Virus record (IMG/VR): IMGVR_UViG_3300036652_001072
Location: 1 to 35,376 of that record
DNA: 35,376 bases
Strand: one strand, 5' to 3'
From: a virus
The position numbers and the translations under genes are program-made. Below the pieces are notes generated by a model. That model worked only from the letters and a program-made list of their open reading frames with translations, was not told the DNA's origin and made no database searches. Shown piece by piece: positions 4,363 to 35,376 of the stretch (positions are counted from its first letter, which is position 1; each line of letters starts with the position of its first letter).

Positions 4363-4372
4363 GGGGACCGCC

Positions 4373-4657
4373 GTGCAGCGCATCGCGATGATCACCGACA
4401 CGGAGAGCCGGGTGGCCGCGGAGCTGCTGGCCGACGGCGCCGCCAACCGGGAGATCGCCGACCGGCTGGGCGTCTCCGAGGACACCGTCAAGTCCCACAT
4501 CAAGCGGCTCCTGGCGGCCGCCGACTGCCACACCCGGACCGAGTTCGTGGTGCGCGTGCTGCGCGGCCAGGTCCGGCTACGCGTGAGGACATGGGGGGCT
4601 GACGGTGAGCGTCCTGTGCGTGCCGAAGCTGGAGCCGCTGGGGCAGGAGTGGCCTAG
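4373..4657 (+). CDS. LuxR/GerE-type helix-turn-helix protein
   Basis: A 94-residue protein starting at GTG with AGGGGGA seven bases upstream. Residues 8-70 form a LuxR C-terminal HTH: TDTESRVAAELLADGAANRE, then IADRLGVSEDTVKSHIKRLL, the classic recognition-helix region with conserved E, V and KSH. There is no receiver or ligand-binding domain, so it is a stand-alone DNA-binding unit. The C-terminus overlaps the large terminase start by 53 bases. Possible roles are control of the late operon or help in DNA recognition by terminase; neither is shown by sequence. Confidence 0.8.
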   Translation: MQRIAMITDTESRVAAELLADGAANREIADRLGVSEDTVKSHIKRLLAAADCHTRTEFVVRVLRGQVRLRVRTWGADGERPVRAEAGAAGAGVA

Positions 4658-6230: not shown

Positions 6231-6246
6231 CAGAAGGGGGGCACAC

Positions 6247-7845
6247 GTGGCCATCGCCGACATGGATCAGCCTGGTTCTGACGGCTGGTGGCTGAAGCAG
6301 CTGTACACGCAGCTGCTGGAGCAGCGCGAGTACTGCCAGCGGATGCTGGACCGGTACTTCGGTGACCCGCCGCTGCCGTTCATCGCCGACACGCAGCGGG
6401 ACTCCGTGAAGTGGTTCGTGGGGCAGTCCCGGACCAACTTCGAGCGGCTGATCGTGGACGCGGTGCTGTCCCGGCTGCGGCTGCGCGGCATCCGCACCGC
6501 GCTCGGCCCCGACGACCGCGGCGACCCGGAGGCGTGGACCACCTGGAAGACGTCCCGCGGGAAGCTGTGGTCCCACGACGCGCACCGCATGGCCCTGGCG
6601 ATGTCCCGCTCCTACGTCATCGTCGGCAAGGACGCGGACGGCAATCTGCTGGTCACCGCGGAGGACCCCCGCTCGGTGACGGCGATCACCGACCCGGAGA
6701 ACCCGTACCGCGTCGAGGCGGCGCTGAAGGTCTACTACGACTACACGGAGGGCGTCGAGCGGGCCTACCTGTACCGGCCGGGCCGCGCGCCGCGAGTCGC
6801 GCAGTCCGACGTCAACTCCGCGTCCCCCGTGGTGTCGATCACCCGGTTCCTCGACCACAACTTCGACTGGCTCGACAACTCCTTCGTCCCGAACATGGAC
6901 GCCGACAACTTCGTCCCCATCGACGGCGGCGCGCCGTGGCTGGCCGGGCACGACGGCCTGCCCGACCTGTGCCCGGTGGTGCCGTTCGTCAACCAGGACG
7001 GCCTGAGCGAGTTCGAGCCGTACATCCCTCTGCTGGACCGCATCAACCAGCAGATCCTGCAGCGGATGACGATCGCGACGGTGCAGGCCTTCCGTCAGCG
7101 CGCGTTCAAGGGTCTCCCGCAGAAGGACCCGAAGACCGGAGAGGACATCGACTACGACTCGATCTTCGTCGCCGACCCCGGGGCCATCTGGAATGTCCCA
7201 GCCTCCGCCGAGATCTGGGAGTCCGGGCAGGTCGACCTTCAGCCCATCCTCCTGGCCATCCGTGACGACATCAAGGACCTGGCTGCGGTCTCAGGCACTC
7301 CGCTGTACACCATCTCGCCGGACGTGGCGAACGGCAGCGCGGAAGGCGCCTCACTGCAGAGGGAGCAGCTGAACTTCCGGGTCGAGTCCCGGCAGGACCG
7401 CTGGGAGATCGCGCACGAGATGGTGGTGGAGCTCATCTTCCGCACCCTCGGCGACGACGCGCGCGCCAAGCCGGGCACCGTGGAGATCATGTGGGCCGGC
7501 ACGGACCGGCCCAGCATGGCCGAGCGGGCCGCGGCCATCGCGCAGACCACCGGCGTCATCCCCCGCTACCAGCAGCTCACCGAGATCTGGGGCATGAACC
7601 CGGACATGGCCGACCGGGCCATGTCGGAGCTGAAGCAGGACTTCCTGCTCGACCAGCAGTTCTCCTCCGCGGTCAAGCCGAACAGCCCGCAGCCACCGCA
7701 GTCCCCCGGCGCCGCGCAGCAGCAGCAGCAGGCGAAGCCGCCGCAGCTGGTCGGCTCGGAAGGTGAACGGCCGGCGATCATGCAGAAGCGCGCCGCCGCG
7801 CGGACAGCCCGCACCACCCAGAAGCAGCAGAACCCGCGGCAGTGA
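6247..7845 (+). CDS. Portal protein (SPP1 gp6-like)
   Basis: A 532-residue protein that forms the dodecameric ring at the head vertex, through which DNA enters and leaves. The N-terminus is helical (LEQREYCQRMLDRYFGD), followed by the core, with LIVDAVLSRLRLRGIR and a LDRINQQILQRMTIATVQAF helix typical of the stem region. The C-terminus is Gln/Pro-rich and basic (QQQQQAKPP). The GTG at 6247 has an AAGGGGGG site six bases upstream; the ATG at 6262 is an alternative. The stop overlaps the start of the MuF-like gene by four bases (GTGA). Confidence 0.92.
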   Translation: MAIADMDQPGSDGWWLKQLYTQLLEQREYCQRMLDRYFGDPPLPFIADTQRDSVKWFVGQSRTNFERLIVDAVLSRLRLRGIRTALGPDDRGDPEAWTTWKTSRGKLWSHDAHRMALAMSRSYVIVGKDADGNLLVTAEDPRSVTAITDPENPYRVEAALKVYYDYTEGVERAYLYRPGRAPRVAQSDVNSASPVVSITRFLDHNFDWLDNSFVPNMDADNFVPIDGGAPWLAGHDGLPDLCPVVPFVNQDGLSEFEPYIPLLDRINQQILQRMTIATVQAFRQRAFKGLPQKDPKTGEDIDYDSIFVADPGAIWNVPASAEIWESGQVDLQPILLAIRDDIKDLAAVSGTPLYTISPDVANGSAEGASLQREQLNFRVESRQDRWEIAHEMVVELIFRTLGDDARAKPGTVEIMWAGTDRPSMAERAAAIAQTTGVIPRYQQLTEIWGMNPDMADRAMSELKQDFLLDQQFSSAVKPNSPQPPQSPGAAQQQQQAKPPQLVGSEGERPAIMQKRAAARTARTTQKQQNPRQ

Positions 7846-8990
7846 CCGCACCCGACCAGACCCAGCAGCAACCCCAGCAGCAGCGGGCCCTCGCGACGGC
7901 GGCCGTCGCCCCCACCCTCCCCTCGGCGACGGCCGCGCTGCTGCCCCTCATCGACGGCCTGGACGCGATGCGGGAGCAGCTGACCGGCACCGCGATGCGG
8001 CTGGTCACCGACTCCGTGCAGAACTTCCACGGCTGGTACTCCACGGATGCGATCACCGCCTGGACGCAGCGGACCGTGTCCGACGTGCAGGCCGTCCTGG
8101 CCACCATGGCCGGCCTCGTGGACGCCTACACCGCGAACATCGTCGGGGAGATGACCGGCGGCCACGTCCGGCCGGCCGGCGCCATCGACGTCACCCAGCT
8201 GCGGCAGGGCATCACCCACGCCGGCGCCTACGGCCGCGTCGCCGACACCTACCGGTACCAGCAGTCCAGGGCCGACCAGGCCGCCAAGCAGCTCCTGACG
8301 GCCCCCACACCGGCCGTGCCGCAGCTGGTCAGCCCGCTGGACGCGGCCCTCCAGCGGGCCGCTGACGTGGCCAACACGGACGCGCAGAAGGTGCTGCAGC
8401 AGCAGACCGCGAAGACCCTGCAGGCCGCCGCCGACGCGGGGGCCCCGATCATCGGCTGGCGCCGCGTCATCCACCCGGAGATGTCGAAGAGCGGCACCTG
8501 CGGGCTGTGCGTGGCCGCGTCCACCCGCATCTACAAGACCGGCGACCTGATGCCGTTGCACACCGACTGCCACTGCGTGCCCGTGCCCGTCACCCTCGCC
8601 CACGACCCCGGCGCCATGATCAACGACGCCGACCTGGGGCAGCTGTACGCGGCGGCCGGCAGCACCGGCCGGGCGGACCTGAAGAAGACCCGCTACCAGG
8701 TCTACGACAACGGCGAGCTCGGCCCCACGTTGGCCCCGGAGGGGGCGAAGCAGCGCAGCCCCCGGCAGGTCGCCGCGGACACCGCGCCGCCCCCCGTCCG
8801 GTCGTTGAGCGCCGCCCGGGAGCAGCGCAAGCAGCGGCAGCTGCAGGACCTGCACGACTCCCTGCAGCGGTCCCTGCAGCGGGTGGAGGGCGAGCTGATG
8901 CCCGCCGACCCCGCGAAGTGGCAGCCGTACCGGGACACGCTCGCCGAGCGCGTCGCCGACCTCGAACAGCAGCTCGCCAGCGCTGCCTGA
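7842..8990 (+). CDS. MuF-like minor head protein
   Basis: A 382-residue head morphogenesis protein, the usual partner of portal in actinophages. The N-terminal half is helical. The diagnostic segment has two Cys pairs, CGLC at residues 220-223 and CHC at 243-245, around AASTRIYKTGDLMPLHTD; this suggests a zinc-bound fold. In many phages this protein is called MuF or capsid maturation protease, but I see no protease triad, so the protease name is not justified. The C-terminal region is Gln-rich coiled coil (REQRKQRQLQDLHDSLQRSL). GTG start overlaps the portal stop, giving translational coupling. Confidence 0.88.
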   Translation: MTAPDQTQQQPQQQRALATAAVAPTLPSATAALLPLIDGLDAMREQLTGTAMRLVTDSVQNFHGWYSTDAITAWTQRTVSDVQAVLATMAGLVDAYTANIVGEMTGGHVRPAGAIDVTQLRQGITHAGAYGRVADTYRYQQSRADQAAKQLLTAPTPAVPQLVSPLDAALQRAADVANTDAQKVLQQQTAKTLQAAADAGAPIIGWRRVIHPEMSKSGTCGLCVAASTRIYKTGDLMPLHTDCHCVPVPVTLAHDPGAMINDADLGQLYAAAGSTGRADLKKTRYQVYDNGELGPTLAPEGAKQRSPRQVAADTAPPPVRSLSAAREQRKQRQLQDLHDSLQRSLQRVEGELMPADPAKWQPYRDTLAERVADLEQQLASAA

Positions 8991-10752: not shown

Positions 10753-11697
10753 ATGCCGTTCAACAACATCATCAGTCGCACCGACACGCAGGCGCTGATG
10801 CCCGAGGAGGTGTCCAACGAGCTGCTGAAGTCGCTGGTCGCCGAGTCGGCGGCGCTCACGATGTTCCGGCGGATCCCCGTCGGACGTCAGCAGGTGCGCC
10901 TGCCCGTCCTGTCCGCGCTGCCCACCGCGTACTGGGTGACCGGCGACACGGGCCTGAAGCAGACCACCGAGCTGGCCTGGGCCAACAAGTTCCTCAACAT
11001 CGAGGAGATGGCGGTCATCATCCCCATCCCGGACAACGTGATGGCCGATGTCGAGGCCAACATCTGGGACGACGCGATGCCGCTGTGCACCAACGCGATG
11101 GGCCGCGTCCTCGACCAGGCCGTGTTCTTCGGGCAGAACGCTCCGGCGTCGTTCCCGATGAACATCGCGTCCGCGACCGCCGCCGCCGGCAACCAGGTGA
11201 CGGAGGGCTCCGCGGCCGCCGCCGGTGGGTTCTACAACGACATCGACGCGGTGTACGGGCTCGTCGAGGCCGACGGCTACGAGGTGGACGGCTTCGTCGC
11301 GGCCACCTCACTGAAGGCCAAGCTGCGGCAGGCCCGCAACACGCTCGGTGACCGGCTCGACCAGGGCCGGGTGAACGGCGCGCTGACCGACCTGGACGGC
11401 CACGCCATCCACTACCCGATGCGCGGCCTGTGGTCGGGGAGCACGGGTGCGCCGCGTGCGTTCGCCGGGGACTTCTCCCAGTTCGTCCTGGGTGTCCGGC
11501 AGGACATCACGATGAAGACCTCCAGCGAGGCCGTCATCCAGGACTCCAGCGGAACGATCGTCTACAACTCGTTCCAGCAGGACCTCACCTTCCTGCGTCT
11601 CACCTTCCGGGTCGGCTGGCAGGTCGCGAACACGATCAACTACGACAACATCGACGGGGCCAGCCGGTACCCGGTCGCGACGCTGCTGCACGCCTGA
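10753..11697 (+). CDS. Major capsid protein (HK97 fold)
   Basis: A 314-residue protein that builds the icosahedral head. The N-terminus PFNNIISRTDTQALMPEEVS is followed by the usual N-arm and spine helix (LLKSLVAESAALTMFRRI), then VRLPVLSALPTAYWVTGDTG, and P-domain and A-domain strands. The E-loop has the typical LAWANKFLNIEEMAVIIPIP. The C-terminal DLTFLRLTFRVGWQVAN is characteristic of actinophage capsid proteins. A scaffold gene lies upstream and a small beta protein downstream. The ATG follows AAAGGA at proper spacing. No Lys/Asn crosslink pair can be assigned from sequence alone. Confidence 0.95.
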   Translation: MPFNNIISRTDTQALMPEEVSNELLKSLVAESAALTMFRRIPVGRQQVRLPVLSALPTAYWVTGDTGLKQTTELAWANKFLNIEEMAVIIPIPDNVMADVEANIWDDAMPLCTNAMGRVLDQAVFFGQNAPASFPMNIASATAAAGNQVTEGSAAAAGGFYNDIDAVYGLVEADGYEVDGFVAATSLKAKLRQARNTLGDRLDQGRVNGALTDLDGHAIHYPMRGLWSGSTGAPRAFAGDFSQFVLGVRQDITMKTSSEAVIQDSSGTIVYNSFQQDLTFLRLTFRVGWQVANTINYDNIDGASRYPVATLLHA

Positions 11698-13940: not shown

Positions 13941-14606
13941 GTGGCGATCACCACGTACGAGGCTGAGGCCAGCACCTACAACCAGCCGACGAACATCTTC
14001 AAGGCGCTCGGCGGCATCGTGTACAAGTCGGCTCTGACCACCCCCATCCCGGCCGCGTTCACCCAGAACTCGACCGCGGACCTGGTGCAGCTGGACACCA
14101 CGCTGTGGCAGCGGCTGGGCCTGCTCACGCAGAAGGACGGCATCTCCTTCGACCGGGCGATGAAGCAGGACGACGAGCTGTCGTGGGGCTACGACGAGCC
14201 CACCCGCTCCGACATCTCCTCCGACGTCACCTCCGCGGTGTTCGTCATGCAGGAGGTCAACCGGTACTCGATGGAGATCTACCACTCCGTCGACCTGTCC
14301 GCGGTGCACCCCGACCCGACCACCGGCGAGGTGCAGTTCAACAAGCCGCAGCTGACCGTGCCCATCTACATGCGGCTGATCTACCTGGCCGTGGACGGGG
14401 TCGGCACCGATCGCCGCTACAAGATCAAGGTCATGCCGCGCGCGCACGTCACCGCGGTCAAGAGCGAGGCGTGGCAGCAGGCTGGTGCCACCCAGTTCCC
14501 GGTCACCATCACCGCCACCGTCGACCCCAACCTGGGCTACTCGGTGCGCGAGGTGCTGGCCGGTCCCGGGCAGAAGTCCCGGAACGCTGGCGCCAGCTTC
14601 GTCTGA
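13941..14606 (+). CDS. Major tail (tube) protein
   Basis: A 221-residue protein that polymerises into the tail tube. Its position between tail terminator and chaperones fits, as does a central beta-sandwich with VFVMQEVNRYSMEIYHSVD and LTVPIYMRLIYLAVDGV. A C-terminal region with QFPVTITATVDPNLGYSVRE is typical of actinophage tube proteins. The GTG start has AGGACGCATC upstream. Hairpins on both sides probably help to give high steady-state mRNA for this abundant protein. Confidence 0.9.
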   Translation: MAITTYEAEASTYNQPTNIFKALGGIVYKSALTTPIPAAFTQNSTADLVQLDTTLWQRLGLLTQKDGISFDRAMKQDDELSWGYDEPTRSDISSDVTSAVFVMQEVNRYSMEIYHSVDLSAVHPDPTTGEVQFNKPQLTVPIYMRLIYLAVDGVGTDRRYKIKVMPRAHVTAVKSEAWQQAGATQFPVTITATVDPNLGYSVREVLAGPGQKSRNAGASFV

Positions 14607-15872: not shown

Positions 15873-18800
15873 GTGGCCATCTACTCAGCTGGTTCGGCGA
15901 GCGTCCAGATCGTCCCCGACTTCCGGGGCGCCACGGAGGCCATCCAGGCCTGGTACGCGGCCCAGGGCGACCTGCACATCAACGTCGTCCCGGACCTGGC
16001 CATCGCCGACCTGGAGCGGATCCGCCGCGAGCTGCAGGCCGTGCAGGCCGAGATCCGGCCGCGGCTCAGCGGGGTGGACACGGCCGCGGCGCAGGCCACG
16101 CTCAACGGCCTCTCCGCCGAGGTGCAGCCCCAGGTCGGCACCGTGGACACCGCCGCGGCGCAGGCCCAGCTGAACAGCCTGGAGGGCACGGCGGTCGTCC
16201 ACGTTCTGCTGGACGCCGTCAGCATGGAGCGCGTCCATGCGGAGCTCAACAGCCTGGAGGGCACCGCCACCATCCACGTCAAGGTGGATGGGGCGGCGAC
16301 GCAAGCCGCCCTGAATGCGGCAGTGACCAACGCCGCCGGCAGTGCGGCCGGTAGTGCGGCCGGCGGTGACGGTGGGGCTGGTAGTGCGATCACCGCCGCG
16401 GGCGGCAGCGCTGCGTTGCGGAACGCCGCCGCCGCTGCAGCTGGCAGCGCAGCCGGTAACACAGCCAGCGGCGGCGGCGGGGACCGTGGCGGCGGCGGTG
16501 GCGCGGGAGCCTTCCTCGGCGCGGCCGCGCTCGGCCCGATCGCCGCCGTCGGCGCGGGCGCCGCCGCGCTGAGCCCGTTCGGTGGGGGCGGCCCGCAGTC
16601 GCACCTGCTGCTGCACGCCATCCCCCTCGTCGGGGACATGCTGCCCGCGCTCGGCGCGCTCGGCGTGGTGCCCGCGTTGATGACCTCCATCGGCGCCTCG
16701 ATGATCGTCACGAAGCTGGCGACCGACAACATGGCGGTGGCCTTCAAGGGGCTGTCGGACAGTGCCAGCCCCGCGCAGCTGCAGGCCGCACTGCAGGCCA
16801 TCCAGGCGATGCCGCCGGCCGCGCAGCAGTTCGTGACGACGCTCGCGCCGCTGCAGAAGTCGATCGACACGAACCTGGTCAAGCCGATCCAGCAGGCCTT
16901 CTACCAGGGCCTCGGGCCGGCCGTGAAGGATCTGTACACCACCGCACTGCCGTTGATGCAGAAGGGCATGGTCGGCGTCGCGCAGTCCACCAACCAGAGC
17001 CTACTGCTCGTCGTCCACCAGCTGATCGCCGACACCACCCAGTTCAGCACCATCTGGGACAACATCGACAAGGCGCGCGCCGCGTCGGTGCCGGTGCTGC
17101 GCAACCTGGTGCAGATCTTCGTGCAGTTCGCCACGGTCGGCTCGCAGTTCCTGCCGCAGATGGCGCAGCACATGACCACCCTGACCCAGAAGTGGTTGGA
17201 CTGGACGAACCACGCCGCCGCCACCGGCGAACTGTTCAACATCATCCAGCGCGGCATGACGACGATCCACGAGATCACCGCGCTGCTGGTGAACCTCGGG
17301 AAGATCTTCTTCGACATCTTCAACGCCGCACAGGTCCCCGGGCAGAACATGCTGCAGCTGCTCATCCAGCTGACCGGTTCGCTCGCCGCGTTCCTGAAGG
17401 CACCCCCCGGCGCGGACGCGCTGAAGAACATCTTCACCGCGCTGCACACCGAGGCAAACGCTGTCGTCCCGCTGATCGGGGACTTCATTCAGCGGGTCAT
17501 CCTCGCGGCCGGTCACATCGTCGGTGACCTGCAGCCGGCGCTCACCGTCTTCTTCAACGCGCTCACTCGCATCTACAACGCGTTGAAGCCGGTATGGGAT
17601 GCAATGCTTGCGCTGATCGACGCCGTTCTGCCTCCCCTGGTGAAACTGTTCGTTGCGCTGGTTCCTCCGCTTACTGACTTCGTCGTGCAGATTGCTGGTC
17701 TTGCTGCTGTTCTGATCGAGAAGGCCACGCCTTACCTCGTCACGTTCGTGAACTGGCTCGTCGATCACCTCATGCCGATCATCAAGGATCTCGGTCCGAA
17801 GCTTGGTGACATCGCGGCGGCCGTCATCGCCTGGAAGAACGCGCAGGCCCTGCTCAACGGCGTCATGAAGCCGATCAACTTCGTCATCGAGATCGCGAAG
17901 GGTGCCTACGGAGCTGCGCTCGCCATAATCTCGGGGGCGACGAAGGCGTGGGCTGCGGCGCAGTGGTTGCTCAATGCGGCGATGGACGCGAACCCCATCG
18001 TGTGGGTCATCGGGGCTCTCGCACTACTCGGTCTGGCCATCTATGAGCTGGTCACCCACTGGAAGGAAGTCACCGGCTTCCTGACCGACCGGTGGAACTC
18101 CGCGTGGGCCTACATCACCAGCACGGCGTCCGCCGCCTGGGGCAAGGTCGTCTCCGCGTGGAACACCTTCACCGGCTTCCTGACCGACCGCTGGAACTCG
18201 GCGTGGGCCTACATCACCGGCACCGTCTCCGGTGTCGGGAACGCCCTGCAGTCCGCGTGGAACACGGTCACCGGCTTCCTGGAGAACCGCTGGAACTCCG
18301 CGTGGGCCTACATCTCGGGGATTGCCAGCTCCGTCTGGGGCAGCATCTCCGGCTTCTTCGTCAACGCGTGGAACCAGTTCACCGGGTTCTTCAAGGGCAT
18401 CTGGGACAACGTCACCGCCTACTGGTCGCTGCTGTGGAACACCCGCTTCAAGCAGCCGGTGACGGAAGCCTGGACCGCCATCTCCACCTTCTTCCAGGTC
18501 GCGTGGGCCGCCTTCACCAGCTACTTCCAGGGCATCTGGAACGGCATCTCCGGGTTCTTCACGGCCAGGTGGAACGAGATCAGCTCCACCGCGCAGGCCA
18601 TCTGGAGCGCGATCGAGAACTTCTTCATCGCCCGGTGGGAGACGTTCAAGGCGAACTGGACCGCCGTCTGGAATGCGGTGTCCGGCTTCTTCACCACCAT
18701 CTGGAACGGCATCAGCAGCTTCGCGCAGACCATCTGGACCGCCATCTCCGGCTGGTTCGTCGCCCAGTGGAACATCCTGCAGACCCAGTGGTCTGTCTTC

Positions 18801-20693
18801 TGGAACACGATCTCGGCGTTCTTCACCACCATCTGGAACGGCATCAGCGCGTTCGCGCAGACCATCTGGAACGCCATCTCCGGCTGGTTCGTCGCCCAGT
18901 GGAACATCCTGCAGACCCAGTGGTCCGTCTTCTGGACGACGATCTCGGTGTTCTTCGGCAACATCTGGAACGGGATCAGTTCCACCGCGCAGAACATCTG
19001 GAACGGCATCTCTGGGTTCTTCACCACCGCCTGGAGTGTTTTCACCACCGCCTGGAATGGCTTCTGGGACGGCGTCGGCGCGAAGTTCAACCAGGTCTGG
19101 AGCGGCATCAAGAGCTTCGCCTCGACGGTGTGGGAAGAGATCAAGGGGATCGTCGCCACGCCGATCAACTTCGTCATCGACACCATCTTGAACAACGGCC
19201 TGTTCAAGGCCTGGAACGCGGTCAACGACTTCCTCTACCTGCCGTGGCACATCAACCCGCTGAACAAGATCCCGGGCTTCTCCGAGGGTGGCTACACCGG
19301 CGACCGGGGCCTGTTCGGCACGGGTGCCCCGGAGGACCCGGCCGGGCTGGTGCACGCCGGGGAGTTCGTGCACACCCAGGACAAGACCAAGCAGTGGCTG
19401 CCCCTCTTCCAGCTGATCCACGCGGGGGCCATCCAGCCGTCCGACCTGGGGCTGCCCGGCTTCGCCGGTGGTGGCCTCGCGGGCACCCCGCAGTCGCTGT
19501 GGACGTGGCCGGAGCTCAACCAGATCCGGCAGAAGATGTTCCCCGGGTCGATCCTCACCGACGCCTACCGGCCTGGCGCCAACGACTACCACGGCGCCGG
19601 GCAGGCCATCGACATCGGCTGGCCCGGCAACGACCCCGCGCACCTGGCGCAGATCGCGGCCGCGCTGGGCCGGGCCTTCCCCGGCATGACGGAGGGCATC
19701 CACAACCCGAACCTGTCCATCAAGAACGGGCGGGTCGTGCCCTCCAGCTTCTGGGGTGCGGCGACGTGGGCGGAGCACGCCAACCACGTGCACTGGGCAG
19801 AGACACCCGGCGACCTGTCGAAAGGCAACGCAACCCCCGGTGGCGCGAGCCTGCTCACCGTCGCCGGCAACGCGATCAACAGCGTCGGCGACATCTTCTC
19901 CAGCCTCGGCTCCTCCATCAGCGGCCCCATCGGGCAGCTGATGAGCCAGTTCAACGGCAACAGCAAGTGGGTGCAGATCCTCGGCGCGCTGCCGAAGAAG
20001 CTGCTCGACGGGCTGTGGAACAAGGTGAAGGACGCAGTCGGTAGCGCCTGGAACACGATCAGCGCGGCGGCACCGGTGATCGCCGGTATCGGCGGGGGCA
20101 GCGCGGCGCAGGTCAACACGGCCGGCATCAAAGCCGAGGCGTTCCAGATCGCCGGGCAGCAGTTCGGCTGGCCGAGCGTGCAGGCCCAGCAGGCCCTCGA
20201 CTACATCGCCAGCCACGAGAGCGGTTGGAATCCGACCGCGAAGAATCCGAGCAGCACCGCGAGCGGGTTGTGGCAGCTCATCGACTCCACTTGGCAGGCG
20301 AACAAGAACGCTGGGCCGTGGCCCACCGCCGGCTCGGCGCCCACCGCCGAGCAGGACACGGCGGCTTTCCGGTACATCCGGAATCGGTTCGGGGACCCGA
20401 TCGCCGCCCAGCAGTACTGGGCTGTCCACCACAACTACGACACCGGTGGCATTGTCCCGCCCGGCTGGAACACGCTGTACAACGGCACCGGCCGTAACGA
20501 GGTCATGCTGAACCCGCCGCAGCTGGACCGCCTCAACAACATTCTCGACGGCCGCGGGAATGGCGGCGGGCAGATGCTGCGGGACCTCAACGTGTCCATG
20601 CAGTCGGCGAACCCGTACGAGGTGGCCGACGAGATCGTCTACCGGCTGAAGGTGGCTTCCCGCGGCGGTGTCTATTCGACAGTGAGGGGGTGA
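15873..20693 (+). CDS. Tape measure protein with two cell-wall hydrolase domains
   Basis: A 1606-residue protein that sets tail length and is ejected with DNA. N-terminal repeats of VDTAAAQA type are followed by Gly/Ala/Ser stretches and hydrophobic segments (LLLHAIPLVGDMLPALG, NPIVWVIGALALLGLAIYE). A Trp-rich repeat region (about 730-1060) has modules such as FLTDRWNSAWAYI and FFTTIWNGISSFAQTIW. The C-terminus has two hydrolase domains. First is an M15-like peptidase (H1240 in HGAGQAID, D1247, H1305 and H1307 in HVH). Second is a lytic transglycosylase (E1449 in ASHESGWNP, then ASGLWQL). The GTG start's ribosome site lies in a hairpin. Some middle codons use many T endings, unlike the rest. 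Confidence 0.92.
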   Translation: MAIYSAGSASVQIVPDFRGATEAIQAWYAAQGDLHINVVPDLAIADLERIRRELQAVQAEIRPRLSGVDTAAAQATLNGLSAEVQPQVGTVDTAAAQAQLNSLEGTAVVHVLLDAVSMERVHAELNSLEGTATIHVKVDGAATQAALNAAVTNAAGSAAGSAAGGDGGAGSAITAAGGSAALRNAAAAAAGSAAGNTASGGGGDRGGGGGAGAFLGAAALGPIAAVGAGAAALSPFGGGGPQSHLLLHAIPLVGDMLPALGALGVVPALMTSIGASMIVTKLATDNMAVAFKGLSDSASPAQLQAALQAIQAMPPAAQQFVTTLAPLQKSIDTNLVKPIQQAFYQGLGPAVKDLYTTALPLMQKGMVGVAQSTNQSLLLVVHQLIADTTQFSTIWDNIDKARAASVPVLRNLVQIFVQFATVGSQFLPQMAQHMTTLTQKWLDWTNHAAATGELFNIIQRGMTTIHEITALLVNLGKIFFDIFNAAQVPGQNMLQLLIQLTGSLAAFLKAPPGADALKNIFTALHTEANAVVPLIGDFIQRVILAAGHIVGDLQPALTVFFNALTRIYNALKPVWDAMLALIDAVLPPLVKLFVALVPPLTDFVVQIAGLAAVLIEKATPYLVTFVNWLVDHLMPIIKDLGPKLGDIAAAVIAWKNAQALLNGVMKPINFVIEIAKGAYGAALAIISGATKAWAAAQWLLNAAMDANPIVWVIGALALLGLAIYELVTHWKEVTGFLTDRWNSAWAYITSTASAAWGKVVSAWNTFTGFLTDRWNSAWAYITGTVSGVGNALQSAWNTVTGFLENRWNSAWAYISGIASSVWGSISGFFVNAWNQFTGFFKGIWDNVTAYWSLLWNTRFKQPVTEAWTAISTFFQVAWAAFTSYFQGIWNGISGFFTARWNEISSTAQAIWSAIENFFIARWETFKANWTAVWNAVSGFFTTIWNGISSFAQTIWTAISGWFVAQWNILQTQWSVFWNTISAFFTTIWNGISAFAQTIWNAISGWFVAQWNILQTQWSVFWTTISVFFGNIWNGISSTAQNIWNGISGFFTTAWSVFTTAWNGFWDGVGAKFNQVWSGIKSFASTVWEEIKGIVATPINFVIDTILNNGLFKAWNAVNDFLYLPWHINPLNKIPGFSEGGYTGDRGLFGTGAPEDPAGLVHAGEFVHTQDKTKQWLPLFQLIHAGAIQPSDLGLPGFAGGGLAGTPQSLWTWPELNQIRQKMFPGSILTDAYRPGANDYHGAGQAIDIGWPGNDPAHLAQIAAALGRAFPGMTEGIHNPNLSIKNGRVVPSSFWGAATWAEHANHVHWAETPGDLSKGNATPGGASLLTVAGNAINSVGDIFSSLGSSISGPIGQLMSQFNGNSKWVQILGALPKKLLDGLWNKVKDAVGSAWNTISAAAPVIAGIGGGSAAQVNTAGIKAEAFQIAGQQFGWPSVQAQQALDYIASHESGWNPTAKNPSSTASGLWQLIDSTWQANKNAGPWPTAGSAPTAEQDTAAFRYIRNRFGDPIAAQQYWAVHHNYDTGGIVPPGWNTLYNGTGRNEVMLNPPQLDRLNNILDGRGNGGGQMLRDLNVSMQSANPYEVADEIVYRLKVASRGGVYSTVRG
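18069..18365 (+). repeat. Three 99-bp repeats in tape measure
   Basis: Units begin at 18069, 18168 and 18267 with period 99 bases (33 residues). Each starts with (V/F)TGFL, then (T/E)(D/N)RWNSAWAYI. The repeats are in phase and encode amphipathic Trp-rich helices. Unequal crossover here would change tail length by whole units. Confidence 0.8.
18690..18953 (+). repeat. Two nearly identical 132-bp repeats in tape measure
   Basis: Copies start at 18690 and 18822 (period 132 bases, 44 residues). The two differ at few positions, so the duplication is recent. Each encodes FFTTIWNGIS...FVAQWNILQTQWSVFW. It is a possible hotspot for length change. Confidence 0.8.
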
Positions 20694-27859: not shown

Positions 27860-28864
27860 ATGGTGCTGCTCGGCATCGACCGTTCCCGCTGGAACGCGGA
27901 ACCCAACTTCGCCGCCTTCAAGGCCGGCGGCATGTCGCTGATCTTCTGCAAGGCCACCGACGGCACCGGCTACAAGGACCCCACCTTTGACGCGTGCCGC
28001 GCGGGCGCGGAGGGCGCCGGCCTGGTGTTCGGCGGCTACCACTTCGCCGAGTGGGGCGACCCCCTCACGGAGGCCGACTGGTTCCTCAGCCAGGCCACCC
28101 CCCGCGCGGGGGAGCTGGTCGCCCTCGACGCGGAGGCCACGCTCCCGGCCGGGGTCGACCCGGTCGCCTGGTCGGTGGCCTGGTCGCAGCGCGTGCACGG
28201 GAAGACGGGTGCGTGGCCGCTCATCTACATGAACCAGTCCTGGCTGGCCGCGCACAACTGGGGGCCCGTCGTCGCCCTCGGGGACGGGCTGTGGCTCGCC
28301 AAGTACGACGGCGCCCCCACCGGCGGCCCCGTCGGCAACTGGCCGGTGATGGCCCTGAAGCAGTTCAGCAGCACCGCCACCGTGCCCGGCGAGACCGGGC
28401 CGGTCGACGAGGACGCCTTCCAGGGCGATCTGGCCGCACTGCAGAAGTACACGGTCCCCGCACCTTCGAGCGATTGGTTTGCCATGGCCACCCAGGACGA
28501 CCTGCGCACCGTCATCAAGGAGTTCTTCCCAGCGAACTACAGCCCCGCCTGGCTGGAGGACATCCTGCGCCGGACGCAGTCGATGCACCTCTACGGCTTC
28601 CGCGCCTTCGACCCCGCCAAGACCTCACCCCCGCCGTGGACGGCGGGCGGTGACCTGTCGTGGCTCGACACCCGGCAGGCCGAGCTGGCCACCGCGGTGA
28701 CCGCCGGAGCTCACCAGCCGGTCACCATCGACCAGGCCGCCGCGGACCTGATCGCCGCCTCCCTCGTCGCGAACCCCAAGTTCCAGCAGGTCGTGGCCAG
28801 CGCCGCCGCGGCCGTCGTCGCCCAGATGGACGCGGACCTGGCGAACCGCTTCGGCCCGAAGTGA
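27860..28864 (+). CDS. Endolysin, GH25 lysozyme
   Basis: A 334-residue endolysin. Residues 1-200 form a glycoside hydrolase family 25 barrel: GIDRSRWN with D7, FCKATDGTGYKDPTF, GGYHFAEWGDP, and LDAEATL with D90 and E92 as likely catalytic acids. It cleaves the N-acetylmuramic acid to N-acetylglucosamine bond. The linker PAPSSDW leads to a C-terminal region of about 130 residues with amphipathic helices and no recognised wall-binding motif. No signal peptide; export would depend on a holin. ATG with a strong GGAGGTGG site. Confidence 0.9.
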   Translation: MVLLGIDRSRWNAEPNFAAFKAGGMSLIFCKATDGTGYKDPTFDACRAGAEGAGLVFGGYHFAEWGDPLTEADWFLSQATPRAGELVALDAEATLPAGVDPVAWSVAWSQRVHGKTGAWPLIYMNQSWLAAHNWGPVVALGDGLWLAKYDGAPTGGPVGNWPVMALKQFSSTATVPGETGPVDEDAFQGDLAALQKYTVPAPSSDWFAMATQDDLRTVIKEFFPANYSPAWLEDILRRTQSMHLYGFRAFDPAKTSPPPWTAGGDLSWLDTRQAELATAVTAGAHQPVTIDQAAADLIAASLVANPKFQQVVASAAAAVVAQMDADLANRFGPK

Positions 28865-29337
28865 CCGGCGCCGCGCCGTCGCGGGGGTTCGCGGCGTGGC
28901 TGATGCGGCACCTGCCGCGGACGATCGCCGTCCACTCCGAGCGGGTGATCATCAACGGCGCGGTGGCGCTGATCGGGTTGGCCGTCCTCGTCGGCAACCA
29001 CGACGGGGCCCTGAACCGGCTGTGGCCGTTCCCCCTGTACGAGTGGGCCGTGACCATGCTCGTCGGCGGCGTCGCGGTGCTGATCGGCATGTTCCGGGAC
29101 AAGCGGTCCATCGAGCGGCTGGGGTTGATCCTCGTCGCCGTCGGCTCCCTCTTCTACGCGGGGCTGCTGCTGTACGCGTTCGGGTCCAGCGCGATCTTCA
29201 CCGCGATCATCTTCGTGGCCATCGCCGCGGCGAAGACCATCCGCCTCGTCGTCGGGTCCGCCATCCGCAGCAACAACATCCAGCTCGGTGAGCAGATGAA
29301 GGAGACCCCGCCACCGCCTCCCGGTGCGCTCCGGTGA
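28861..29337 (+). CDS. Four-TM membrane protein, possible holin
   Basis: A 158-residue protein whose GTG start overlaps the endolysin stop. Four hydrophobic stretches are seen: IINGAVALIGLAVLVG, YEWAVTMLVGGVAVLIGM, GLILVAVGSLFYAGLLLYAF and AIFTAIIFVAIAAAKTIRLV. The N-terminus is basic and arginine-rich. It may be a holin or holin-regulator next to the lysin. A second, more typical holin lies two genes on, so this could be an antiholin or accessory membrane protein. No further motif is visible. Confidence 0.75.
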   Translation: MTGAAPSRGFAAWLMRHLPRTIAVHSERVIINGAVALIGLAVLVGNHDGALNRLWPFPLYEWAVTMLVGGVAVLIGMFRDKRSIERLGLILVAVGSLFYAGLLLYAFGSSAIFTAIIFVAIAAAKTIRLVVGSAIRSNNIQLGEQMKETPPPPPGALR

Positions 29338-29765
29338 GCAGCGTGGCGGTCACCTGGGTGGCCCCCGGGCTGGTGCTGGCCGGCGCGGTGCTGGGCCTGA
29401 TCCGGTGGTACGTGCGGGACCGGCGCAAGTCGGAGGCCGAGGCCGAACTGATCGAGCACACCCTCGACTCGGACGCGGACCTCCACGACACGGGGGCCCG
29501 CGACGCGCGGCTGGTGTACGTGCAGCGGCAGGTCGACATGGAACGCGCCTTCCACGTGCAGCAGATCGCCGACCGGGACGCGGAGATCCTCCGGCAGCGC
29601 ACCGAGCTCGCGCACCGCGACCAGCAGATCACCTCCCTACTCAGGCAGGTACGCGAGTTGGAGCGGCAGCTCGGGGAGATGACCCGGCAGCTGACCTCCG
29701 TCCGCTCCCAGCTGGTTCAGCTGGCCGTGCACGACAACCCCACCACGAATGGAGACCGTCCCTGA
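29334..29765 (+). CDS. Single-TM coiled-coil membrane protein
   Basis: A 143-residue protein, with GTG start overlapping the previous gene. One N-terminal membrane segment (VAPGLVLAGAVLGLIRWYV) is followed by a basic stop-transfer (RDRRKSEAE), and about 100 residues of charged coiled coil (RTELAHRDQQITSLLRQVRE). The layout resembles an i-spanin of phages of Gram-negative hosts, but a Gram-positive host has no outer membrane. So it may be a lysis regulator or anchor. It lies between two holin candidates. The role is inferred. Confidence 0.7.
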   Translation: MSSVAVTWVAPGLVLAGAVLGLIRWYVRDRRKSEAEAELIEHTLDSDADLHDTGARDARLVYVQRQVDMERAFHVQQIADRDAEILRQRTELAHRDQQITSLLRQVRELERQLGEMTRQLTSVRSQLVQLAVHDNPTTNGDRP

Positions 29766-30046
29766 TGTTCACCCTCGCGTTCTGGAAGGACGCCGGGGAG
29801 CGCGCCGCGAAGACCTTCGCCCAGGCCCTCCTCGGCGTGCTGGCCGCGACCGCCACCCTCGCCACCGTCAACTGGTCGGCGGCCCTCGCCTCGGCCGGCA
29901 CCGCGACCGTGCTGTCGCTGCTCACCTCCGTCGTCTCGCTACCCGTCGGCGGCAACGGGACGGCCTCCCTACTCCGGGCCGTCCGGTCCGGCCGCCACGA
30001 AGCCAGCAACCCCCCGACCCCGGAGGTCAACAGCAATGTCCACTGA
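29765..30046 (+). CDS. Holin, r1t-like family
   Basis: A 93-residue protein with the FWKDAGERAAKTFAQALLGV start that is typical of r1t-type actinophage holins. Two membrane helices are present: ALLGVLAATATLATVNW and AALASAGTATVLSLLTSVVS, followed by a short polar tail. It makes lesions in the cytoplasmic membrane that release the endolysin. The ATG overlaps the previous stop. No dual-start motif is evident. Confidence 0.88.
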   Translation: MFTLAFWKDAGERAAKTFAQALLGVLAATATLATVNWSAALASAGTATVLSLLTSVVSLPVGGNGTASLLRAVRSGRHEASNPPTPEVNSNVH

Positions 30047-30633: not shown

Positions 30634-31068
30634 ATGGCCGTCACCGCGCACGTCTACCCCCAGTTCGACCAGAAGGCCCTGAGCAAGGCGGTCAACGCCG
30701 CCACCGACAGCCTGAAGGTGATGCTGCTGTCGGCGTACACCTTCGCCAACACGCACGCCACGATCGCCGACGTGCTCGGCGCGGGCACGGAGGCGTCGGG
30801 CACCGGCTACACCGCCGGGGGGCAGGCGCTCACCGGCGTCGCCTGCACCACCAGCGGGCTGGTCACCACCCTCACCGCCGCCAACCCGGCCTGGGCGAGC
30901 TCCACGATCACCGCCTCCTACGCCGTGTTCTACGACGCGCAGGGCGGCACCAACGCCACCAACTACCCCTTCTGCTACTGGGACTTCGGCGGCGCCCAGT
31001 CGTCCAGCGCGGGCACGTTCACGCTCACCGTCAACGGGTCGGGGCTGGTCACCTGGACCGCGTCCTGA
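30634..31068 (+). CDS. Small beta-rich phage protein (fibre accessory)
   Basis: A 144-residue protein with ATG and AGAGAGGA upstream. Characteristic features are SLKVMLLSAYTFANTHATIA, EASGTGYTAGGQALTGVACT, ITASYAVFYDAQGGT and a QSSSAGTFTLTVNGSGLV end. These match a family often seen in actinophages next to fibre or head genes and thought to be virion surface proteins. It follows the terminator and so may need its own promoter, which I could not identify in the 80-base gap. Confidence 0.75.
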   Translation: MAVTAHVYPQFDQKALSKAVNAATDSLKVMLLSAYTFANTHATIADVLGAGTEASGTGYTAGGQALTGVACTTSGLVTTLTAANPAWASSTITASYAVFYDAQGGTNATNYPFCYWDFGGAQSSSAGTFTLTVNGSGLVTWTAS

Positions 31069-31137: not shown

Positions 31138-34100
31138 GTGGTCGTCGCAGTCGATGCCTCCTCGCCGACGGTGGTCAGCGGCAACCCCGCCGGGACGCTG
31201 ACCACCGCGTCGTTCACACCGCCGGCCGGGTCGATGCTGATCGCCCGGACCAACGCCGACAACGGCAGCGGCAGCGTCACCTCCACGATCACCGACAGCC
31301 TCGGGGGCACGTGGACCCTCGCGGCCCGATCCAACAGCAACGGCGGCGGCTGCGACATCTACACCCGGGTCGTGGGCAGCAGCGCCGCCATGACCGTGTC
31401 GGCCACCTTCGCGAACGCCTGGAACCACGCCAACGCGGGGCAGCTGGCGGTGCACGTGCTCACCGGCGCGGACACCACCACCCCGGTCGGCAGCAAGGCC
31501 ACCGGCACCACGAACACTGTGACGATCACGCCGCAGACCGTCGGCGCGTTGATCTTCGGCAACATCATCACGGTCCAGTCCGGCACCGCCTACATCGCCG
31601 GGGCGAACACCACCTCGTCCAACAGCTTCAACGACCCCAGCGGCGGCTTCGCCTACATGGCGTGGCGGTCCACGAACACGACGACCACGCTGACGGCCAC
31701 CACCTACGGGTCGTCGGTGTCCCAGGCGTCCCAGAACATCGCCGCGGTGGAGATCCGCGCCGGCAGCAGCAGCAGCGGCGCCACCGTCGCCGGGCCGGCC
31801 GCCACCGTCGCCGTCGCCGCACCCAATGGGATCTTCCCGAACAACACCGTCGCCGGCCCAGCCGCCGCTGCCACGGTCGCCGCCCCGGCCGGTTCGGTGT
31901 CGGTGGGCCCGACCACGCCGTGGGTGAACTACACCACCATCATCCAGCCCCTCAGCACCAGCGGCGCCACCTGGACTTTCACCCCGGCCACCGCCGGGAA
32001 CCTGCTGGTCGCCGTTTGCACCGCAGAAGCCACGTTCGCCACCCCCGCCGGCTGGACGCTGCTCACGTCGGCGCTGAGTGGGCAGGGTGACTACGTCTTC
32101 TACAAGACGGCCACGGCCGGCGAGTCCAGCTTCACCAGCACAAGCAACGCCGGGGCCACCTTCGAGGGTGTGGTCCAGGTCTTCGAGTTCGCGGCCGGGT
32201 CCACGATGGGCGCCGCGTTCGCCACCACCGGCAGCGCCCAGAACGCCCCCAACGCGGCGAACCCGTCGATCACCCCCACCGCCGGGCAGCTTGCCATCGC
32301 GGTCGCCACCTACTCCGGCAACAACAGCACCGCCGGGTCGTGGACGAGTCTGGCCGGGGGCACCGCCCTGGTGGCCGACCACCACCCCAACTGGGGCACC
32401 TACACCGGCGGCGGCGCGGAGATGGGCACCGCCTACCTGGCGAACGCCCCGGCCAGTGCATGGGCACCGACGTGGACCGTCACGCCGGACCCCCAGTCCT
32501 TCAAGCAGGGCATCAGCTTCACCGTCAACGTCAGCAGCAGCACCAGCGCCACCGTCGCCGGCCCGGCCGCCGCCGTCGCCGCCGCCGCACCCAACGGGGT
32601 CTTCCCCAGCAACAACGTCCCCGGCCCAGCCGCGACCGCGACCGTCGCCGCCCTGGCCGGCTCGGTGTCGACCGGCCCGACCACGCCCTACCTGCGGGCC
32701 ACCACGGCCACCGGCACCAGCGCGACCACCGCCGTCACCTACAACTTCGCCGCCTCCACCTCCGGGAACCTCCTGGTCGCGGTCGCCCAGGGTGCTGTCA
32801 CCTTCACCACCCCCACCGGCTGGACGCTGCTGGACTCCTGCGTGGCGTCGCACGGCCTGTACGTGTTCACCAAGACCTCGACCGGGGACTCCAGCCTGTC
32901 CAGCACCAACAACGGGACCGGGTATCCCACCATCGTCCGGGTCTACGAGTTCCCGTCCGGGTCCACGATGGGGGCGGCGCACGCCAACTCCGGGGCCTCG
33001 AACATCACCTACAACGCGGCGAACCCGTCGATCACCCCCACCGCCGGGCAACTGGCCGTCGCCGTCATCGAGTACGACAACGACGGCGGCACTAGCGCGA
33101 CGTCCACCACCTGGTCCGGGGTCACGGGGCTGGTCAAGGACGTCGACGCGACCGTCCCCTTCGGCGCCGTGCAGGGCTACGAGTTCTCCATCGCCTACCT
33201 GGCGAACGCACCGGCCGCCGCGTTCGCGCCGGTCGGCACCCCCAGTCCGGGCACCAGCAACAACAAGCAGGCCCTGAGCTTCACCGTCAACACGGTCGGC
33301 GGCGGCGGCGGTGGCACGGTCACCGTCACCTGCGGCCGGGACCGCGCCGTGGTCGACGGCGGCACCGTCACCCTCGACGTCACCGCGTCCAGCACCGGCG
33401 GATCCATCACCGGGCACTCGTGGGCGGTCACCACCGGCGCGGGCACCCTCACCAACGCGACCACGGCCACCCCCACCTACCACCCGCCAGCGTCCGGGGT
33501 GGGTACCGCCGTCATCACCGACACCGCGACGGACAGCGCGAGCAACACCGGCACCGGGTCGATGACCGTCGGCTACGGGCCGAACATCGTCGCCGCCGAG
33601 AACCAGCTGGCCGGCACCCCCGCCGCCACCTGGGACCTGGCCGCCCCCAACCGGGGCGGGATCACCACCCTGCAGGGCTTCTGCGACGGCTACACCTACG
33701 ACCGCACCCAGACCGTCAACTTCAAGATCGCCCAGTCGGACACGGCGGGCTGGTCGGCGGACGTGTACCGGCTCGGCTACTACGGCGGCAACGGTGCCCG
33801 GCTCGTCGCCTCCGGGCTGACCCCCACCTCGGGGCAGCTGACGGCCAGCCAGGCGCAGCCGGCGCCCACCGACGTCGACCCGAACAGCACGCTGCTGTCC
33901 GCGGACTGCGCCAACTGGTCGACGACGCTCACCTGGACGCCGCCAGCGTGGGCCCCGAGCGGCGTGTACATCCTGCGGCTGAAGGAGACCGGCGGCGGCG
34001 CCAGCCACGTCTGGTTCATCCTCCGCGACGACGCGCGCACCGCCGACATGATGCTGATGACCGCGGACATGACGTGGACCGCCTACAACGCCTTCGGTGG

Positions 34101-35376
34101 GATGGGCGGCAGCCTCTACTCCGGCAACAGCGTCTACTACGGCACCTCCGTCAACCAGGCCAACACCGACCGGGCGAAGATCGTCACCTACGACCGGCCG
34201 TGGGTGAACCGGGGCGCCGCCGACACCGGCTACGGCGCGGTGCAGTACTCCAACCTGTTCGCCGCCGAATACCCGATGATCAAGTTCCTGGAGCGGAACG
34301 GGTACGACGTCAAGTACTACGGCGGCATCGACGCCGCGGCCGACCCGACCGGCTCGAAGCTGACCGGCAAGGTCACCACCGCGATGTTCGTCGGCCACAA
34401 CGAGTACTGGTCGTCGGGCATGCGGGCCGGCTACGAGGCGGCCAAGCAGGCCGGGGTCAACCTGTTCTCCTGCGCCAGCAACGAGGTCTTCTGGCGGACC
34501 ATCACCCAGGGCCCGCAGGACGCTCAGGGTCGCTACCACGACGTGCAGTGCTGGAAGTCCACCATCGACGGGCTCGGGGCCAGCAACCCCGAGTGGACCG
34601 GCACCTGGCGCGACACCACCGGCAACGGCAAGGGCGGCGGCAACCCTGAGCTGTCCCTGACCGGCACCATCTTCTGCACCAACGGCCCCGACCAGCACCC
34701 GCTCGTGGTGCCCGCCACCGGCGGCTACAACACCCAGCCGATCTGGCGGAACACCTCGGCCGCGACCACCGCCTACACCAGCCCGGCGGCGATTGTCGGC
34801 TTCGAGTGGGACACCTACGGCCCGGCCGGCGACGACAACGCCGGCGCCAAGCCCTACATGGGCACCGTCGACCCCCTGGCCCGCCGCTGCTCCAGCGCCA
34901 CCTACTCCACCGGCAACCAGCTGCAGAACGCGGGCGCCGTCTACGGCTCCGGCAACAACACCCACAGCTGCGTGGTCACCCCCAACCGGAACGCTCAGGG
35001 CGCCCTCAATGGGGCGATCACCTTCGGCACCGGCACCTGCCAGTGGGCGTGGGGTGTGGACAACGCCAACACGGCCACCGTCGGCGGCGACAACACCGAC
35101 GTCGTCATCCAGCAGGCGACGGTCAACATGCTGGCCGACATGAGCGTCCAGCCGGCCACGCTCATGTCCGGGCTGACCACCCCGGTGAAGGTCGTCTGGT
35201 ACACCGTCGTCACCGGCGCCACAGCGACCGTCGCCGCCGCCGCCCCGCCCGGCACGGTCAGCATCGGCGCCGGTGCCACCGTCACCGGCCCGGCCGCCGG
35301 GGTCGCCGCCGCCGCACCGACCGGCAGCGTCACCGCCACAAGCTCGGCCACCGTCGCCGGGGTGCTGGCCGCGGTT
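31138..35376 (+). CDS. Giant chimeric adhesin with N,N-dimethylformamidase-like domain (partial)
   Basis: An open frame of 1413 codons without a stop, cut by the window end. It starts at GTG with AGAGGAGGT five bases upstream. Domain order: lectin-like beta domain 1-210; Ala/Pro/Gly linker 214-261; lectin-like domain 262-469; linker 470-517; third lectin-like domain 518-720; Gly run; Ig-like domain 726-815 (TVTLDVTASSTGGSITGHSW); N,N-dimethylformamidase large-subunit-like domain about 820-1350; linker again. The last domain has YRLGYYGGNGARLV, ASHVWFILRDD, TWTAYNAFGG (Y983), TYDRPW (Y1018), AEYPMIKFLERNGYDV and GHNEYW (H1087, E1089). The known family uses two Tyr and one Glu to hold iron, and candidates are conserved. 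No signal peptide. Probably a virion fibre; function inferred. Confidence 0.88.
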   Translation, partial: MVVAVDASSPTVVSGNPAGTLTTASFTPPAGSMLIARTNADNGSGSVTSTITDSLGGTWTLAARSNSNGGGCDIYTRVVGSSAAMTVSATFANAWNHANAGQLAVHVLTGADTTTPVGSKATGTTNTVTITPQTVGALIFGNIITVQSGTAYIAGANTTSSNSFNDPSGGFAYMAWRSTNTTTTLTATTYGSSVSQASQNIAAVEIRAGSSSSGATVAGPAATVAVAAPNGIFPNNTVAGPAAAATVAAPAGSVSVGPTTPWVNYTTIIQPLSTSGATWTFTPATAGNLLVAVCTAEATFATPAGWTLLTSALSGQGDYVFYKTATAGESSFTSTSNAGATFEGVVQVFEFAAGSTMGAAFATTGSAQNAPNAANPSITPTAGQLAIAVATYSGNNSTAGSWTSLAGGTALVADHHPNWGTYTGGGAEMGTAYLANAPASAWAPTWTVTPDPQSFKQGISFTVNVSSSTSATVAGPAAAVAAAAPNGVFPSNNVPGPAATATVAALAGSVSTGPTTPYLRATTATGTSATTAVTYNFAASTSGNLLVAVAQGAVTFTTPTGWTLLDSCVASHGLYVFTKTSTGDSSLSSTNNGTGYPTIVRVYEFPSGSTMGAAHANSGASNITYNAANPSITPTAGQLAVAVIEYDNDGGTSATSTTWSGVTGLVKDVDATVPFGAVQGYEFSIAYLANAPAAAFAPVGTPSPGTSNNKQALSFTVNTVGGGGGGTVTVTCGRDRAVVDGGTVTLDVTASSTGGSITGHSWAVTTGAGTLTNATTATPTYHPPASGVGTAVITDTATDSASNTGTGSMTVGYGPNIVAAENQLAGTPAATWDLAAPNRGGITTLQGFCDGYTYDRTQTVNFKIAQSDTAGWSADVYRLGYYGGNGARLVASGLTPTSGQLTASQAQPAPTDVDPNSTLLSADCANWSTTLTWTPPAWAPSGVYILRLKETGGGASHVWFILRDDARTADMMLMTADMTWTAYNAFGGMGGSLYSGNSVYYGTSVNQANTDRAKIVTYDRPWVNRGAADTGYGAVQYSNLFAAEYPMIKFLERNGYDVKYYGGIDAAADPTGSKLTGKVTTAMFVGHNEYWSSGMRAGYEAAKQAGVNLFSCASNEVFWRTITQGPQDAQGRYHDVQCWKSTIDGLGASNPEWTGTWRDTTGNGKGGGNPELSLTGTIFCTNGPDQHPLVVPATGGYNTQPIWRNTSAATTAYTSPAAIVGFEWDTYGPAGDDNAGAKPYMGTVDPLARRCSSATYSTGNQLQNAGAVYGSGNNTHSCVVTPNRNAQGALNGAITFGTGTCQWAWGVDNANTATVGGDNTDVVIQQATVNMLADMSVQPATLMSGLTTPVKVVWYTVVTGATATVAAAAPPGTVSIGAGATVTGPAAGVAAAAPTGSVTATSSATVAGVLAAV
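31777..31920 (+). repeat. Ala/Pro/Gly linker repeat, copy 1
   Basis: A 48-codon module, with segments GATVAGPAATVAVAAPNG and TVAGPAAAATVAAPAGSV, sits between the first two lectin-like domains. It is clearly homologous in frame and length to 32545-32688, which is exactly 768 bases downstream. A third partial copy appears from 35212 to the window end. Confidence 0.85.
32545..32688 (+). repeat. Ala/Pro/Gly linker repeat, copy 2
   Basis: The second 48-codon linker has SATVAGPAAAVAAAAPNG, then NVPGPAATATVAALAGSV. Together with the following lectin-like domain it forms a unit duplicated from 31777-32544. The two lectin domains share WTLL, AANPSITPTAGQLA and AYLANAP blocks. Confidence 0.85.

Follow-up and report, generated by a model that had tools for sequence, protein, structure and literature searches.

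The stretch of DNA analyzed here (the window) comprises the 35,376 bases of a virus record whose gene annotation is that of a tailed phage, with terminase (4605-6230), portal (6010-7845), protease (7842-8990), major capsid (10753-11697) and major tail protein (13941-14606) genes, and with a tail block in which a tape-measure-sized protein carrying a transglycosylase (SLT) domain (15873-20693, + strand) is followed by tail genes. A lysis cassette (27860-30046, +), consisting of a GH25 endolysin gene (27860-28864), a gene without an assignment and a holin gene (29324-30046), and then a phrog_644 gene (30634-31068, +) lie upstream of the gene described in this work (31138-35376, +), which encodes a giant fibre-like protein. 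Its frame begins with a GTG at 31138, with the ribosome-binding-like sequence GAGGAGG a short distance upstream, and continues without a stop for 1413 codons (residues 1-1413) until the 3' end is truncated by the end of the contig. An earlier note made from the sequence had described an open frame of at least 1413 codons that runs off the window, in a tail/lysis gene neighbourhood and without a signal peptide; the frame and the window annotation agree with this description. The capsid protein of the window is 60.6% identical to those of Arthrobacter phages, so the host is, on sequence grounds, probably an actinobacterium.

The product encoded upstream of the terminase gene at positions 518-2779 (+) is 753 residues long. 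Its start resembles a signal peptide, it contains a PKD domain and a phosphoesterase domain (PF04185), and its C-terminal region combines a PF06439 match with a GH16-like GEYDFAE motif. Isolated phages match this protein over 50 residues only, and its gene may either belong to the phage and specify a secreted enzyme or be host DNA lying at the edge of the contig.

The N-terminal half of the fibre-like protein is built from domains joined by repeats. Domain n1 (residues 1-212; 31138-31773) is followed by a linker of Ala/Pro/Val repeats of the TVAGPAATVAV type (31774-31899), beta domain n2 (residues 255-469; 31900-32544), a second repeat linker (32545-32667) and beta domain n3 (residues 511-724; 32668-33309), with direct repeats D1, D4 and D5 in both linkers. 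A stalk of the same Ala/Pro/Val composition (35173-35376; repeats D1 and D6) forms the C-terminal end and is cut by the end of the contig; in a viral relative, P0003, C-terminal repeats of the same kind run on to the stop codon. Three lectin-like beta domains had been proposed for the N-terminal region, and this description was retained in part. n2 and n3 form a tandem pair sharing 49% identity (E=1.5e-42), whereas n1 resembles them only weakly (BLASTP E=0.023 and 0.005), and the AlphaFold2 model of n3 (pLDDT 74, pTM 0.80) is indeed a beta sandwich, but one with no specific lectin match. All its matches in the PDB were weak, the best being to a baseplate protein of phage Tuc2009 (Z 7.9), with structures of the concanavalin A type at Z of about 3.4-3.8. 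Among the viral structural matches to n3 in BFVD are minor tail proteins from phages of Mycobacterium and Gordonia. Another is an 806-residue Microbacterium phage protein named as a glycerophosphodiester phosphodiesterase (E=8e-6, TM 0.70), and this model-based match suggests that n3-type domains carry other enzymes too in actinophages.

The phrog_644 gene was also found near the domain gene in two of the related viral contigs described below (L004 and L011), and its product was called a minor tail protein by the depositors of Gordonia phage Sixama. In the Gordonia phages Fryberger, GMA1 and Sixama, phrog_644 is directly followed by a gene for a repeat-rich protein (L116 9445-10875, L117 9453-10712 and L118 7438-9189). 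The repeat style of these proteins resembles that of the window protein by eye but not in score, since HMM and phmmer comparisons of the repeats and n-domains with them were not significant. The position after phrog_644 is perhaps a fibre slot with variable cargo.

Between n3 and the stalk lie a PKD domain (residues 725-812; 33310-33573) and an enzyme domain. The Pfam match to PKD is weak (residues 733-811, E=8.9e-5, below the cut-off) and gains support from the AlphaFold2 model of residues 725-1354 (mean pLDDT 71, pTM 0.82), of which model residues 1-91 superpose on collagenase PKD domains with Z of about 11. For the enzyme domain, the earlier note had proposed a likeness to dimethylformamidase (DMFase) at about residues 820-1350, with a PF20254 profile search and a structure model as ways to check it. 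The Pfam search returned PF20254 (DMFA2_C) at residues 874-1309 with a score of 251 bits, far above the cut-off of 27 (E=2.7e-74), and the DMFase homology already begins ahead of the Pfam model, at about residue 815. When a profile built from the window protein, its viral relatives and bacterial homologues was run against the PDB, only two kinds of solved protein were found: Paracoccus DMFase (6lvb, E=1.9e-50) and N-acetyl-(R)-beta-phenylalanine acylase (8i5a, E=5.1e-47; 8i5a and 8huy both about 1e-47). The alignment profile was required, as a single-sequence phmmer search of the PDB gave no match. The model superposes on both solved enzymes with Z of 24.9-25.6 and rmsd of 3.1-3.8 over about 400 residues, and in the case of DMFase its alignment spans residues 1 to 761 with about 414 residues matched. 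We regard the identity and fold of the PF20254 domain as practically certain. A BFVD search with the whole enzyme model gave, among the best 50 matches, only PKD/Ig-type or other partial matches with query TM of at most 0.14, and none of these 50 spanned the enzyme fold.

With the large subunit of Paracoccus DMFase (PDB 6lvb-6lve, PMC7686228) the window protein shares an Ig-like domain I (residues 815-966; 33580-34035) and the catalytic domain III (residues 967-1345; 34036-35172), at Z of about 25. The pentraxin domain II of DMFase is missing: domain I is contiguous, the upstream part of the HMM match covers DMFase residues 6-41, and the model skips the corresponding part of DMFase. The two proteins are 14-16% identical, and they differ further in that the phage domain is fused to fibre-like domains and has no recognised small subunit; two small upstream ORFs did not match the PDB small subunit in a phmmer search. 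The acylase (PDB 8huy, 8i59, 8i5a) has the same fold (Z about 25) and, judged by its name, an N-acetyl amide as substrate, but is a bacterial enzyme without fibre domains and is about 17% identical to the window protein.

In DMFase, the iron is held by Y399, Y440 and E521, with H519 and N547 nearby, and the mutants Y440A, E521A and H519A are inactive (PMC7686228). Each of these five residues has an aligned equivalent in the window protein: by HMM alignment, Y983 (34084-34086) and Y994 (34117-34119) correspond to Y399 and Y440 and are the predicted iron-ligand tyrosines, the H1087-N-E1089 stretch (34396-34404) provides the predicted catalytic His (H519) and iron-ligand Glu (E521), and N1115 (34480-34482) corresponds to N547 near the active site. 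Y983, E1089 and H1087 had already been picked out as candidates in the earlier note, together with Y1018. The last was replaced by Y994, because it is Y994 that aligns with Y440 and because column 1018 varies (mostly Y/F/L/M/W among 103 aligned homologues). Column 994, for its part, is Tyr in all 102 homologues that have a letter there, and the complete YYHEN signature was present in 97 of 103. The loops that bear the tyrosines (model residues 260-313) were modelled with pLDDT below 50, and the assignment of the five site residues, which draws on alignment and conservation, is very likely correct.

To find viral relatives, 2.9 million IMG/VR contigs were scanned by pattern and by alignment; these scans used short exact peptide patterns and may have missed further relatives. 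Five more viral contigs with a PF20254 domain were recovered, namely L004 (a 68.6 kb record), L006, L011 (cut off), L114 (cut off) and L115. L003 and L005, from a DNA-motif scan, proved to be chance motif matches, and a longer DNA-pattern scan found nothing. The copies of the window, L004, L006 and L114 form a single clade with 100/100 support, placed next to bacterial DUF4082 proteins, while the L115 copy branches elsewhere in the tree. The domain was thus probably acquired by phages at least twice, as judged from this branching. The L115 copy (4217-5671) is a stand-alone 485-residue PF20254 protein without a signal peptide, encoded between head and tail genes.

In four of the five other viral contigs (L004, L006, L011 and L115) the domain gene lies among head and tail genes: it stands between those for major capsid and tape measure in L004, precedes the tape measure gene in L006 and follows the capsid/connector genes in L011. 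The L114 copy lies near a DNA polymerase gene. These placements bear on whether the gene belongs to a phage at all. That it might be host DNA at a provirus boundary is suggested by its running off the contig end and by the frequency of the domain in Actinomycetes, where PF20254 was found in 126 of the 297 genomes sampled from the class of Micromonospora. A host-gene or provirus-edge origin was nevertheless rejected in view of the fully supported clade that sets the four viral copies apart from the bacterial ones and of the close kin inside phage structural blocks; this reading is already largely refuted and exceedingly improbable, and the PF20254 gene is almost certainly a phage gene.

Where seen, the PKD and enzyme core is constant and the N-terminal domains vary between phages, being fn3 in L004, L006 and L011 and n1-n3 in the window; at the level of sequence, such modularity is what a fibre would be expected to show. 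A different account is that the protein stays out of the virion and, produced during infection or lysogeny, alters the surface or metabolism of the host cell, which would suit the position of the window gene after the lysis cassette and of the L114 copy near a DNA polymerase gene, but sits poorly with the lack of a signal peptide, with the placement within head/tail blocks in L004, L006, L011 and L115, and with the N-terminal domain fold held in common with minor tail proteins. Such a non-virion role is very unlikely, and it is likely that the fibre-like protein is part of the virion, whether on the head or the tail. In three relatives the gene is on the head side of the tape measure gene or near head genes, so the protein may decorate the head instead of the tail.

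If the protein is carried by the virion, its enzyme domain could still serve there as a binding or structural fibre module without catalysis. Phage fibres can employ enzyme folds for binding, no small subunit was recognised, and the close viral copy L114 has a Trp at the Y994 position, with a Tyr seven residues later, so that its second ligand could be shifted or the copy could be inactive. The activity of DMFase requires its small subunit (PMC7686228). The pattern of conservation speaks for catalysis: the window, L004 and L006 copies keep all five site residues at a catalytic-domain identity of only about 60%, L114 itself keeps the H, E and N, and the signature is near-universal in bacteria. 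On this balance a purely binding module is unlikely, though less so than a non-virion role, and the enzyme domain of the window protein is, as far as its residues can tell, probably active.

The closest sequences found, DUF4082/PF20254 giant surface proteins of Rhizobium and Actinomycetes, are 39% identical over all 531 residues and form the sister clade of the viral copies. They carry DUF4082 and in some cases cadherin and Big domains, none of which occur in the viral relative P0003; DUF4082 was absent both from P0003, which reaches its stop codon, and from the 1413 residues of the truncated window protein. In Actinomycetes, PF20254 open frames vary in length from about 460 residues to more than 2,700, often with several copies per genome, and this large family appears to be functionally unstudied. 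At one actinobacterial locus (G095; L122 933-4338), Ice-binding-like (PF11999) proteins, one of them fused to DUF4082, are encoded beside a PF20254 surface protein.

Several of these bacterial genes lie in polysaccharide loci. The Rhizobium DUF4082/PF20254 loci contain glycosyltransferase, DegT-type aminotransferase, acyltransferase and O-antigen translocase genes, and a Paracoccaceae plasmid locus has glycosyltransferase, exopolysaccharide export and sugar-nucleotide genes around its PF20254 gene. Epimerase genes were found beside the PF20254 gene in two of three actinobacterial genomes examined, accompanied in one by a DegT aminotransferase and a PglD-like acyltransferase and in the other by a sugar transferase. 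Sets of aminotransferase and acyltransferase genes typically make N-acylated amino sugars. No polysaccharide context was present at the Arthrobacter/Paenarthrobacter plasmid, G095 and Sinorhizobium B11 loci. Next to the PF20254-DUF4082 gene, each of the four alphaproteobacterial loci has a gene for a CobW/COG0523 GTPase of the metal-chaperone type (L107 18091-19275, L108 16728-17912, L112 18075-19259 and L111 8673-9929), an arrangement that suggests a dedicated supply of metal to this clade of enzymes. No CobW chaperone gene was found in the viral contigs, which are incomplete.

Taken with the acylase structure, the polysaccharide loci and the CobW neighbours point to a metal-dependent amide hydrolase that acts on N-acyl groups in surface polysaccharide, and by homology the phage protein may have the same activity. 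The suggestion in the earlier note that the domain could cut an amide or formyl group in the host surface thereby gains some indirect support, from the N-acetyl acylase and from the acyl-amino-sugar genes in the polysaccharide loci of the closest bacterial relatives. Given that the enzyme is active, the chance that its substrate would be N-acyl amino sugars of the host polysaccharide is even or somewhat better. A virion enzyme might instead cleave another amide or acyl bond of the envelope, such as a peptidoglycan N-acetyl group, a cell-wall peptide or a teichoic acid substituent. An actinobacterial host, to which the capsid similarity to Arthrobacter phages (60.6%) points, and known tail proteins with wall-directed enzymes (PMC10194240) would fit such a target, but since several of the nearest bacterial relatives sit in polysaccharide loci, we consider it fairly unlikely.

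For the phage protein we infer packaging in the virion, metal loading, catalysis and substrate, which together make up the following proposal. The gene would encode a long, modular, virion-associated fibre of an actinobacteriophage, in which beta-sandwich domains and repeat linkers hold the PKD domain and a DMFase-type iron amidohydrolase domain. In the latter, Y983, Y994 and E1089 would coordinate a ferric ion which, with H1087 and N1115 close by, would activate water for amide hydrolysis; the likely substrate would be an N-acyl group, acetyl or formyl, carried by amino sugars in the host surface polysaccharide, so that the virion would de-N-acylate or remodel the polysaccharide layer of its host during adsorption. 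That the protein is a virion-associated iron amidohydrolase which removes N-acyl groups from host surface polysaccharide is, in our estimate, evenly balanced. The stricter version, in which the virion carries a ferric two-Tyr, one-Glu amidohydrolase that de-N-acylates amino sugars of host polysaccharide by means of a metal site and fold for which no description in viruses was found, and that is related to surface proteins of bacterial polysaccharide loci, is a more tentative proposal that falls somewhat short of even.

Enzymes that remove acyl groups from host polysaccharide are known from the deacetylating fibres and spikes of phages (G7C gp63.1, Possum gp66, the Vi phages and c341; PMC9569702, PMC5380687), which are virion proteins, as the window protein would be if packaged. 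The G7C and Possum fibres use SGNH hydrolase domains, whereas the window protein has a predicted iron amidohydrolase of unrelated fold; Possum gp66 removes O-acetyl groups, whereas the window enzyme would act on N-acyl groups. In the publications consulted, deacetylating fibres and spikes either bear SGNH hydrolase domains or are deacetylases known for longer, for which no fold is given. Literature searches on the PF20254 family (DMFA2_C, DUF4082, DUF6605) yielded no description of phage members, and tblastn with the domain, with P0003 and with the L115 copy found no match in 50,697 isolated-phage records; the statement in the earlier note that no phage example was known therefore stands for these sources. 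An enzyme on a phage fibre is a known principle, and it is the occurrence of the PF20254 enzyme class in phages that appears to be new; until now its fold has been characterised only in amide-cleaving iron enzymes from bacteria.

To reach their receptors, phages trim the polysaccharide of the host, for the most part by means of glycosidases, lyases or O-acetyl esterases. If the proposal is true, a virion-borne iron amidohydrolase for N-acyl groups would be new chemistry for this trimming and could be used to edit polymers of amino sugars. Such an enzyme would also suggest a function for the DUF4082/PF20254 surface proteins, which occur widely in Actinomycetes and Rhizobium.
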